This document shows positions 10,882-64,000 of a DNA stretch of 64,000 nt, in pieces (the stretch's first letter is position 1; each line of letters starts with the position of its first letter). The notes beneath the pieces are model-generated. The model was not told the origin of the DNA, made no database searches, and was given only the letters and a program-made list of their open reading frames with translations. Source of the DNA: Chloroflexota bacterium (lineage in GTDB: Bacteria > Chloroflexota > Anaerolineae > Anaerolineales > Villigracilaceae); NCBI GenBank assembly GCA_016195815.1, contig JACPYX010000021.1, positions 62,001 through 126,000 of the forward strand. Reading direction: 5' to 3'. The position numbers were made by a program, and so were the translations under genes.

Positions 10882-10894
10882 AATTCGACGAAAT

Positions 10895-10932
10895 TTCCCT
10901 CTCCTTTTGCAGGAGAGGGGGTAGGGGTGATG
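10895..10932. repeat. Short G/C-rich palindrome (CCCTCTCC type)
   Basis: Arms CCCTCTCC and GGAGAGGG around a 7-base loop, followed by GGTAGGGGTGA. It lies between the toxin gene and the diverged helicase-tail copy. A related element is inserted in the ABC ATPase gene near 63283-63313. Confidence 0.6.
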
Positions 10933-61391: not shown

Positions 61392-62696
61392 ATGAATCAT
61401 AAACTTCCACGCCCCGCAATCGCAGGCATCGTTCTTTTGCTCGCGCTCGTCGCTTATTTTGGCTTCCAAACCTTTGCCGGCGCTGGCAATGGCCGGCTCG
61501 TTGCATCTGGAACGATCGAAGCAGTGACGGTTAATGTCGCGCCGGAAATATCCGGCAAAGTTACGGAGGTTCTGACCGATGAGGGCCAAACGGTTAAAAC
61601 AGGCGACCCGCTTCTTCGCCTGGACTCAAGCCTGCTGGCCGCGCAGCGAGCCGTCGCCGCCGCCCAGGTTGATTCCGCCAAAGCCGCCCTGGCGTCTGCC
61701 CAGAGCGGTTATGATCTTGCCCTGCAAAACGCGCTTAATGCCGAACAAGCCTCCACCGCAAAAACCTGGCGCTTCTCCGCTCCCGATGAATTCAATCAGC
61801 CGGCGTGGTATTTCGAAGCCTCGGCACAAATTCAAGCCGCGCAAGCTGAAGTCGAAGCCGCGCAAAAAGGCCTGACCGATGTGCAGGCCAATCTCGAAAA
61901 AGTCATCACAGATTTGAACAATGCGAATTTCGTAAGCGCCGAAAAACGCCTGCGCGATGCGCGCGCCGCGTTTTTGGTCGCGAAAGATGTCAAGACCGCC
62001 GCGGATAACGCCGTTGAAGGCGGCGGCCTGCAAAAGGCCGCCGACGAATCTTACAACACCGCGCTCGATGAATTGCGCGCCGCACAGAATGATTACAATG
62101 CGCTTCTTAATTCCAAATCCGCGGCCGATGTTGAAAATGCACGCGGACAGGTGATCGTCGCCCAGCAAAGAATTGATGCGGCCAACACGCGCTTGCTTGC
62201 CTTGCAGACTGGCGCGCAATCGCCCGCGGTTGTAACAGCCTCCAAAGCTCTTGATCAGGCCAGGACCGCGCTGGCGCAATCTGACTCCAACCTGGCTTTG
62301 CTTGATGCACAGCTTTCCAAGCTTGCGATTTCATCGCCCGCCGACGGAACGATTTTGACTCGCAATGTTGAGCCGGGCGAATTCGTCCAGCCGGGCGCTG
62401 TCGTTTTGACGCTGGCGAATCTCAACCAATTGACGATCACGGTTTATGTCCCTGAAAATCTTTACGGACAGATTTCATTGGGCCAAAAAGCCCGCGTTAC
62501 TGTTGATTCATTCCTCGCTCTCTCGTTCGATGCAACTGTCGTCCATATTTCTGACCAGGGTGAATTCACTCCGCGCAATGTGCAAACAGTGCAGGGCCGC
62601 AGCGGCGTGATGTATGCCATCAAGTTGCAGGTGGATGATCCACAAGGAAAACTAAAACCGGGTATGCCCGCCGATGTGAACTTTAGCGGCCAATGA
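61392..62696 (+). CDS. HlyD-family membrane fusion/periplasmic adaptor protein
   Basis: A 434-residue protein with an N-terminal membrane anchor (residues about 9-26). The biotinyl-lipoyl-like half GTIEAVTVNVAPEISGKVTEV with VKTGDPLLRLDSS precedes long Ala-rich coiled coils (about 80-270), and ILTRNVEPGEFVQPGAVVLTLANL begins the closing lipoyl and beta-barrel domains. A similar protein in Gram-negative YbhG/YhiI systems links the inner membrane pump to the outside. Here, with a monoderm-like envelope, it may act outside the membrane. Confidence 0.9.
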   Translation: MNHKLPRPAIAGIVLLLALVAYFGFQTFAGAGNGRLVASGTIEAVTVNVAPEISGKVTEVLTDEGQTVKTGDPLLRLDSSLLAAQRAVAAAQVDSAKAALASAQSGYDLALQNALNAEQASTAKTWRFSAPDEFNQPAWYFEASAQIQAAQAEVEAAQKGLTDVQANLEKVITDLNNANFVSAEKRLRDARAAFLVAKDVKTAADNAVEGGGLQKAADESYNTALDELRAAQNDYNALLNSKSAADVENARGQVIVAQQRIDAANTRLLALQTGAQSPAVVTASKALDQARTALAQSDSNLALLDAQLSKLAISSPADGTILTRNVEPGEFVQPGAVVLTLANLNQLTITVYVPENLYGQISLGQKARVTVDSFLALSFDATVVHISDQGEFTPRNVQTVQGRSGVMYAIKLQVDDPQGKLKPGMPADVNFSGQ

Positions 62697-62718: not shown

Positions 62719-63708
62719 GTGAGCGATTACCTGGTTCAAGCAATCGGTTTGCGAAAAAGCTTCGGCGCTGTTCATGCTGTCAACGGCGTTGACTTCAATA
62801 TTCCCGCCGGCGAAATTTATGGACTCGTCGGCTCGGACGGCGCGGGCAAAACAACGACCATGCGTTTGCTGGTGGGCGCGCTGTTACCAGATTCAGGCGA
62901 AGCCGCCGTTTGTGGATTCGATGTTCGAAAGCAAATCGAACAAGTCCGTTCACAGATCGGCTATCTTTCGCAGCGCTTTTCAATGTACGAAGATTTGACC
63001 GTCCTCGAGAACATCCGCTTCTTTGCCGAAGTGCGCGGACTCTCCTCCAAAGAGTGGCTGCCGCGCTCGCTGGATATTTTGGAATTCGTCGGCCTTGCCA
63101 ACTTCAAAGATCGCCGCGCCGGGCAACTCTCCGGCGGAATGAAGCAAAAACTTGGGCTGGCATCTGCACTGGTCACGCGTCCGCGCGTGTTGCTGTTGGA
63201 TGAACCGACCACCGGCGTGGACCCGGTCACGCGCCAGGATTTCTGGCAGTTGCTGATCAAGCTAGTTTCACCCCCCACCCAACTCCCCCCATCTTCGGGG
63301 AAAATGGGGGGAGAGCAAGAGGGGGGCCGCGTTTCTGTTTTGATCTCCACGCCATACATGGACGAAGCCGCGCGCTGTAATCGAATCGGTTTTATGCGCC
63401 ACGGACAGATCATCGCCGAGGGCGCGCCGTCCGAGTTGCGCGCGATACTCAATGAGCGCATCCTTGAATTGCGCGGCGATCCCATGCCGCTTTTGCGGCG
63501 CGTGGCCAGGCAGGATCAGGATGTCGAAGATGTGCGCGCATTCGGCGACCGGCTGCACTTAAGAGTCGGTGAGAAAAAGGCCGGGGATGTCCTCAGCCGT
63601 TTGCCGTCTGCGATAAGAAGCGAGCAGGGCCGGGTTGATGATCTGCGCGCCGTCCCGCCCGTCCTCGAGGATGTCTTCATTTCTTTAGCGGAGTCGGAAA
63701 ATGATTGA
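62719..63708 (+). CDS. ABC transporter ATPase with an in-frame palindrome insertion
   Basis: A 329-residue ATPase starting at GTG. Walker A is [11 protein letters not shown] (K44), signature [12 protein letters not shown], Walker [14 protein letters not shown]. Just after the D-loop, about 20 residues of low complexity (from [12 protein letters not shown] to GEQEGGR) encode a palindromic repeat not found in relatives. The expected H-loop His is replaced by Pro in [11 protein letters not shown], as in the first half of YbhF-like fused ATPases. The stop overlaps the next gene by eight bases. Confidence 0.9.
63269..63328. repeat. G/C-rich palindrome inside the ABC ATPase gene
   Basis: A 10-bp perfect stem (CTCCCCCCAT 63283-63292 with ATGGGGGGAG 63304-63313) flanked by further C-runs and G-runs. 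It keeps the reading frame. A relative of the CCCTCTCC-type palindrome occurs at 10895-10932. Confidence 0.75.
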
Positions 63709-64000
63709 GCCTGTGATCAAGGTCGAAAACCTAACCCGCCTCTTCGGAGATTTTGTGGCGGTGGATCACGTCAACTTTGATGTGAAGCCCGGCGAAATCG
63801 TCGGCTATCTCGGCCCGAACGGTTCGGGAAAAACAACGACCATTCGTATGTTGCTCGGCCTGCTCGAACCGAACGAAGGCAAAGCCACGGTGCTCGGTTA
63901 CGACGCGTTTCGCCAGAGCGAAGAAGTGCGCGCGCGCGCCGGATACATGTCGCAAAAATTTGCGTTATACGACGATTTGACGGTTTGGGAAAATTTGGAA
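63701..64000 (+). CDS. ABC transporter ATPase, second subunit, cut by window end
   Basis: The first 100 codons of a second ATPase in the exporter operon. [21 protein letters not shown] leads to Walker [11 protein letters not shown] and [20 protein letters not shown], where the Q-loop lies. Here the cofactor motifs are normal, unlike the first ATPase. It overlaps that gene by eight bases, so the two are translationally coupled. Together they correspond to the fused two-domain YbhF ATPase. Its C-terminal two thirds are outside. Confidence 0.93.

Follow-up and report, generated by a model that had tools for sequence, protein, structure and literature searches.

An in-frame palindromic repeat in an ABC ATPase gene of an Anaerolineales bacterium, and exchange of repeats at the same loop among its relatives

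The DNA described here (the window) is a stretch of 64,000 nucleotides from a Chloroflexota bacterium of the order Anaerolineales (family Villigracilaceae; assembly GCA_016195815.1, contig JACPYX010000021.1, positions 62,001 to 126,000). Close to its end lies a gene for an ABC transporter ATP-binding protein which carries a short palindrome within its reading frame. The features of the locus, in positions of the window, are the following.

61392–62696, plus strand: HlyD-like gene upstream of the ATPase gene (named by eye)
62719–63708, plus strand: ABC transporter ATP-binding protein, DrrA/YbhF-like, 329 amino acids, intact apart from the insert (profile search and model)
63268–63333, plus strand: recurrent-insertion loop of the ATPase, from a Ser codon to a Val codon; in relatives, repeats are exchanged here
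63271–63327, plus strand: imperfect palindrome of 57 bp (C6...G6), 19 codons in frame
63283–63313, no strand assigned: inner hairpin of the palindrome, CTCCCCCC-N15-GGGGGGAG
63701–64000, plus strand: first part of another frame which, by eye, resembles an ABC ATPase and continues past the end of the window

The ATPase matched the Pfam domain ABC_tran with an E value of 2.4e-32 and showed the features of DrrA/YbhF-like proteins, namely this domain, a Walker A motif, the signature LSGGMKQKL and a Walker B motif. A DrrA-type C-terminal domain scored slightly below its Pfam cut-off, and the top NCBIfam models, DrrA and RbbA, each stayed below their own cut-offs. A previous sequence-only reading had reported a C-run/G-run palindrome in frame in an otherwise intact ABC ATPase gene; the element was found where this reading had placed it, its exact extent being 63271–63327, and the frame is kept throughout the 329 residues. 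The insert is flanked by a Ser codon on one side and an Arg codon on the other. Its outer arms are runs of six C (63271–63276) and six G (63321–63326), and its inner arms (63283–63296 and 63300–63313) comprise 14 nucleotides each with 93% complementarity. A pattern for the core of 25 nucleotides, with up to three mismatches, matched once in the window and never in 100 shuffled windows. The RNA hairpin predicted for the palindrome has a free energy of -34.4 kcal/mol (z score -2.41), which was equalled by three of 200 shuffles. Besides this element, the window gave a single repeat match, at 10893–10930; it is weak (E about 1e-3), of a CTCTCCC type, and lies in a minus-strand frame of 158 amino acids.

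The insert is situated after the D-loop helix and before the strand which precedes the H-loop position. An AlphaFold model, calculated from the window protein and 34 homologues, had a mean pLDDT of 91.6; the insert appeared as a loop of low confidence joining helix 169–183 to strand 206–211, and residues 193–199, inside the insert, were the only run of three or more residues with a pLDDT below 50. For an alignment (A1), 34 of 80 named loci were used, 15 of them homologues from other phyla, and none of these 15 possessed residues at the place of the insert. The position of the H-loop histidine was occupied by Pro or Ala in all 35 aligned sequences, whether they carried an insert or not.

A homologue of the ATPase was present in 34 of 41 genomes of a first search (E 1e-90) and in 124 of 152 genomes of the family (E 1e-85); the genomes were MAGs, one per species. 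Altogether 147 ABC ATPase loci were retrieved, including outgroups that belong to other families within the order, and the loop could be read in 139; the remaining eight (L157, L161–L167) were dropped. In 85 of the 139 homologues, the stretch from window residue 185 to 201 held five or more additional residues, the longest insert having 57, and the total length of the loop ranged from 3 to 63 amino acids. Elsewhere in the protein, extra residues occurred at two places, in one of 139 sequences each. Insertion recurs, then, at one loop. Its contents were short in 53 sequences, belonged to 12 pattern classes in 78, and were unassigned in eight. Classes were assigned by pattern and by eye, and some may be related: C-run palindromes (26), CTCTCCC/GGGAGAG palindromes (26), a TCGA type (6), and nine smaller classes with 20 members together. 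The earlier statement that homologues have a short turn at this place is correct for those from other phyla; close homologues, however, often hold another repeat. A repeat-free homologue sharing the insert residues was not encountered among the 139 loops and alignment A1.

Such a distribution could perhaps indicate that the loop is a fast-changing interaction surface under selection, for which repeats supply the raw material. The restriction of high turnover to one loop would suit this idea, as would the presence of ribosome-associated RbbA among the best NCBIfam matches, although below the cut-off. Yet nothing but a short loop is present in 53 of the 139 rows (outgroups included), the insert classes differ in sequence, the stretch is of low confidence in the model, and the same kind of element is present in unrelated enzymes (see below). 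A function of the inserts is thus considered improbable.

Dispersal was examined by joining 21 inserts as one query against their 21 genomes, where 15 of 45–290 first-look candidates per genome were scored. Each genome yielded 8–38 matches, a number which includes the loop itself and matches to other inserts. Among the matches listed, copies outside the loop occurred in one genome or another for nine of the 12 classes, so that dispersal is established for most classes; those without such a copy were ACGCAAC, AATTACC and CGAAT, the last of which was absent from the query. Further copies of the genome's own insert were present, among the matches listed, in nine of 21 genomes, with identities of 78–98% over 39–116 bp. 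In two other genomes, 20 sites with a repeat were inspected by eye, of which four were in frame in long genes; most of the CTCTCCC copies were not. Two observations concern the structure of individual inserts. Loci L155, L158 and L160 contain composite inserts of 46–63 amino acids with several repeat types in series (GTAGACA and AATTACC units), as if multiple insertions had accumulated. L089 and L105 share the same CTCTCCC insert (43 of 45 aligned bases), L089 having 18 extra internal bases, possibly a repeat within a repeat.

A loop free of sequence constraint could also grow by slippage or local duplication, in which case the likeness to repeats would be compositional. The range of loop lengths, from 3 to 63 residues, and the tandem units within some inserts (L155, L160) would be in accordance with this. 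The explanation is nevertheless highly improbable, in view of the further copies of their own inserts in nine of 21 genomes among the matches listed, the inverted-repeat architecture of many inserts, and the different inserts of sister species.

In the genome of the window itself, the sequence-only reading had suggested that copies of the palindrome be mapped in other genes, and related copies are indeed in frame in two genes of sugar transfer. One (contig C22, 91121–91173; 81% identity) lies in a methyltransferase-glycosyltransferase fusion, the other (C11, 216324) in a GT4 glycosyltransferase. A five-run palindrome (C4, 35517) is located between two long frames. No rate was derived from the sample of about 449 kb of this genome, some of its contigs having been picked for known copies. 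Repeat matches of other kinds were noted as well. The alanyl-tRNA synthetase (C6, 165739–168546; L252/L253) has a CTCTCCC-type match at residues 538–557 approximately and, on visual inspection, another stretch resembling a repeat, LSTFNLQISNVQTVQN, towards the C-terminal part. In a group of shikimate-pathway neighbours (C6, 210714–214999; L255), prephenate dehydrogenase, EPSP synthase and chorismate synthase all have repeat matches. True length insertions are those of seven residues in EPSP synthase and six residues in prephenate dehydrogenase. A second match in EPSP synthase (C6, 212307) was rejected as an insert and not counted, since the loop of solved homologues has nearly equal length; the match in chorismate synthase (C6, 214632) was rejected likewise, its loop being near normal in length compared with solved homologues, and is regarded as repeat-like DNA only.

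For the history of the loop, a maximum-likelihood tree of 139 proteins was constructed from which the loop columns had been removed; it was the result of a quick search, and 56 of 135 inner branches were weak. On this tree, the classes of 131 rows required a minimum of 57 changes, and short-loop rows occurred within insert-bearing clades. Close pairs support exchange without reliance on the tree. L117 and L136 are identical in 488 of 498 positions upstream (98%) and 255 of 280 downstream of the loop, and they contain a C-run and a CTCTCCC insert, respectively. L128 and L129 (452 of 498 upstream) contain CTCTCCC and CGGTTAAC, respectively. With 447 of 498 identical positions between L058 and L064 and 441 of 498 between L064 and L070, these three loci hold three different classes. 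Thus, different repeats in close relatives are a matter of observation. For 24 hand-picked pairs with inserts of the same class, the similarity of the inserts exceeded that of the flanks in 18 cases, fell below it in five and equalled it in one; frequent arrival of fresh copies would lead to such a result. Comparison of L054 with L098 showed the element in the place of the short loop residues.

These data could be explained by recombination (gene conversion) between repeats, the old insert serving as a seed for the exchange and being overwritten, without new transposition. Replacement is visible in close pairs, and the greater likeness of same-class inserts than of flanks (18 of 24 pairs) would be expected from such a process as well. 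Exchanges took place, however, between classes which have no evident sequence in common (L128/L129, L122/L158), and short-loop rows are found inside insert-bearing clades. Gene conversion in place of new transposition would appear possible, but less likely.

The C-run/G-run element was also investigated as a family of its own. A relaxed palindrome pattern was found in 49 of 60 family genomes, with 253 forward matches versus 16 for the reversed control. From 48 sampled palindrome loci, one was without the core where it was expected, and the other 47 comprised 20 of a six-run and 27 of a five-run type. Choice of the six-run loci was left to the search tool or followed palindrome length, without regard to coding state; the loci are not all independent (two valyl-tRNA synthetase copies are from one genus). 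In 17 of the 20 six-run cases, the palindrome kept the frame of a confirmed gene and lay within a Pfam domain or between domains. The host genes code for valyl-tRNA synthetase (twice), TlyA (twice), RlmN, UvrD, alanyl-tRNA synthetase, HemD, a CbiQ-type transporter protein, a GMC oxidase, an amine oxidase, a cytochrome, a protein of the amino-acid-kinase fold, three xanthine dehydrogenase-like proteins and an ABC ATPase; the latter is the ATPase of this study in another genome, which was already met in the survey of homologue loops. Of the remaining six-run loci, one had a domain downstream only, and two were other repeats without support. Nine of the 27 five-run palindromes were scanned with Pfam: three were inside a domain, one just past the end of a domain, and five without support. 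Of another nine canonical family loci, six were situated inside a domain; the other three were, respectively, in a long frame but beyond its domain, in a frame to which Pfam gave no match, and outside any long frame. In a sample of 400 Chloroflexota genomes, the canonical pattern was detected in ten, i.e., in nine of 24 sampled family genomes and one of 376 others; the single match outside the family had a different core by eye.

A palindrome with a strong predicted hairpin could act as a regulatory element of the mRNA, such as a terminator, a pause site or a stability element, and its coding position could be incidental. Two palindromic classes account for 52 of the 78 classed inserts, and of the nine five-run palindromes tested, only three were within a Pfam domain. 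Against this stand the 26 classed inserts from other classes and the position of the six-run type in the middle of genes, in frame in 17 of 20 cases; a regulatory role is thus highly improbable.

Among 33 unique full elements, 16 were 66 bp long, 13 were 57 bp and four were 58–60 bp, the window element being counted here as 58 bp because the preceding A was included. Lengths divisible by three may merely reflect survivorship in genes. All six frames were open in 21 of the 33; in dinucleotide shuffles of five elements, all six frames were open in 31–55%. Stop-free reading was therefore rejected as proof of adaptation, the openness of the elements being largely a consequence of base composition.

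Insert-bearing loops recur in other genes. In prephenate dehydrogenase (29 of 30 loci read), one loop had at least four extra residues in nine of 29 family members, and four other places had extra residues in one of 29 each; six of the nine long loops were CTCTCCC-like and three not repeat-like (by eye). The loop of valyl-tRNA synthetase was readable in 22 of 30 loci, which were the best-scoring of 97 genomes and are biased to insert-bearing genes; judged by eye from the peptides, three contained C-run inserts, six CTCTCCC-type and three TSEV-type inserts, and ten were short or unclear. In many other genomes, including that of the window, the flanks of the valyl-tRNA synthetase loop abut without an insert. 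On these smaller samples, both loops behave like the loop of the ATPase. Three further proteins hold different variants of the element at the same loop: TlyA (L366, L388), xanthine dehydrogenase-like proteins in their iron-sulphur part (L381, L390, L391), and the GT4 glycosyltransferase, here in two genera (L394, L266). For alanyl-tRNA synthetase, the repeat match in the genome of the window and the element in genome G053 (L378) appear, by profile coordinates, to be in the same region.

Presence of the same kind of element in housekeeping enzymes bears on a further part of the sequence-only reading, which had proposed that the insertion may be tolerated in a surface loop of a degenerate ATPase half. 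In-frame insertion into a tolerant loop is supported by the dispersed copies, the repeat-free homologues without residues at the site and the low-confidence loop of the AlphaFold model; alignment and model had both been suggested there as checks. The degenerate half, by contrast, is not what permits the insert, since the H-loop position is altered with or without an insert and housekeeping enzymes accept such elements too.

Probably, several repeat classes seed the genomes of the family, and in-frame copies persist in a few tolerant loops, where they are repeatedly replaced. According to this proposal, genomes of this Anaerolineales family would carry several classes of short interspersed repeats, which would land at random, or be copied between repeats, in reading frames and intergenic DNA. 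Copies which break proteins would be lost, and frame-keeping copies in very tolerant surface loops would be retained by selection. The loop after the D-loop helix may be so tolerant that it is often occupied, most lineages of the family holding some repeat there and one repeat often replacing another. The C-run/G-run palindrome would be one such repeat, whose forms of 57 and 66 bp, being multiples of three and nearly stop-free, should suit an intragenic life. Neutrality of the inserts, movement of the repeats and an enzyme responsible for it are what we infer from these comparisons. A more far-reaching version, which must be called doubtful, holds that the palindromes are a lineage-specific class specialised for reading frames and swap, together with other repeats, through a fixed set of loops, to which valyl- and alanyl-tRNA synthetase would contribute. 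If so, these loops would be standing exchange sites which diversify conserved proteins.

Concerning the mode of movement, neither a target-site duplication nor a clean empty site was seen by eye in the pairs compared. Inverted C6/G6 ends are present; MITEs have the terminal inverted repeats of a parent transposon together with a target-site duplication. REP-associated transposases (RAYTs) were considered as mobilising enzymes and rejected, since none of 28 Y1_Tnp loci from seven genomes (25 of them above the cut-off) had a C-run palindrome within 1.5 kb; three of the 28 had another repeat class within this distance. L273 and five similar loci are frames of 536–567 amino acids with a Y1_Tnp match, one per genome in six of the seven family genomes. 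These frames are larger than REP-associated transposases are known to be.

Several known systems invite comparison. The Rickettsia palindromic elements (RPE) comprise several families of about 150 bp which are in frame in unrelated protein genes and yield a peptide insert (PMC10969869). The C-run element is likewise palindromic, dispersed and in frame within protein genes. RPE are about 150 bp long and from Rickettsia (PMC10969869), whereas the elements described here have 57 or 66 bp and are from Anaerolineales, and the Anaerolineales loop also exchanges further repeat classes. Short palindromes inside open reading frames, including those of UvrD-type helicases and tRNA synthetases, have been described for GTAG/CGTC REPs, which are mostly intergenic and tagged at their ends; different REPs near the same recB site were reported for two Xanthomonas species in one case (both PMC3733652). 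In contrast, most of the six-run elements sampled here are intragenic, and the recurrence at the loop is family-wide. No element had a GTAG or CGTC tag at its end, the ends being set at the C6/G6 runs; internally, with both strands counted, GTAG was present in two of 33 and CGTC in 20 of 33 elements. REPs seldom overlap coding regions, as stated in PMC12306157, unlike the six-run palindromes, which are in frame in confirmed genes in 17 of 20 cases. A difference from the REPIN/RAYT system is the absence of a repeat-flanked Y1 transposase among the 28 Y1_Tnp loci of seven genomes. The small dispersed repeats of cyanobacteria are very short and possibly mobile, and short in-frame variable segments inside genes have been noted in E. 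coli and Staphylococcus aureus (PMC2884548). The latter segments vary between strains of one species, whereas those of Anaerolineales are dispersed repeats which differ between species. To our knowledge, exchange in protein loops is no part of the account of cyanobacterial small dispersed repeats.

In-frame palindromes as such are already known, as scattered cases, from the RPE and from intragenic REPs; what is new is that a single loop repeatedly exchanges different repeats, and that a family of palindromes is found mostly within genes. In the open-licence literature, as far as its accessible text goes, a report of such repeats in Anaerolineales, or of one loop exchanging many classes, was not found. 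In a single transporter loop, a minimum of 57 changes of repeat can be traced through a bacterial family, and close sister pairs differ in the repeat. Two questions become testable with this material, namely how short repeats move without a known enzyme, and how much insertion is tolerated in a conserved enzyme, and where. Peptides derived from repeats can mimic homology in databases. The insert-bearing loops of housekeeping enzymes form a natural record of where insertions are permitted, which is usable for protein tagging.
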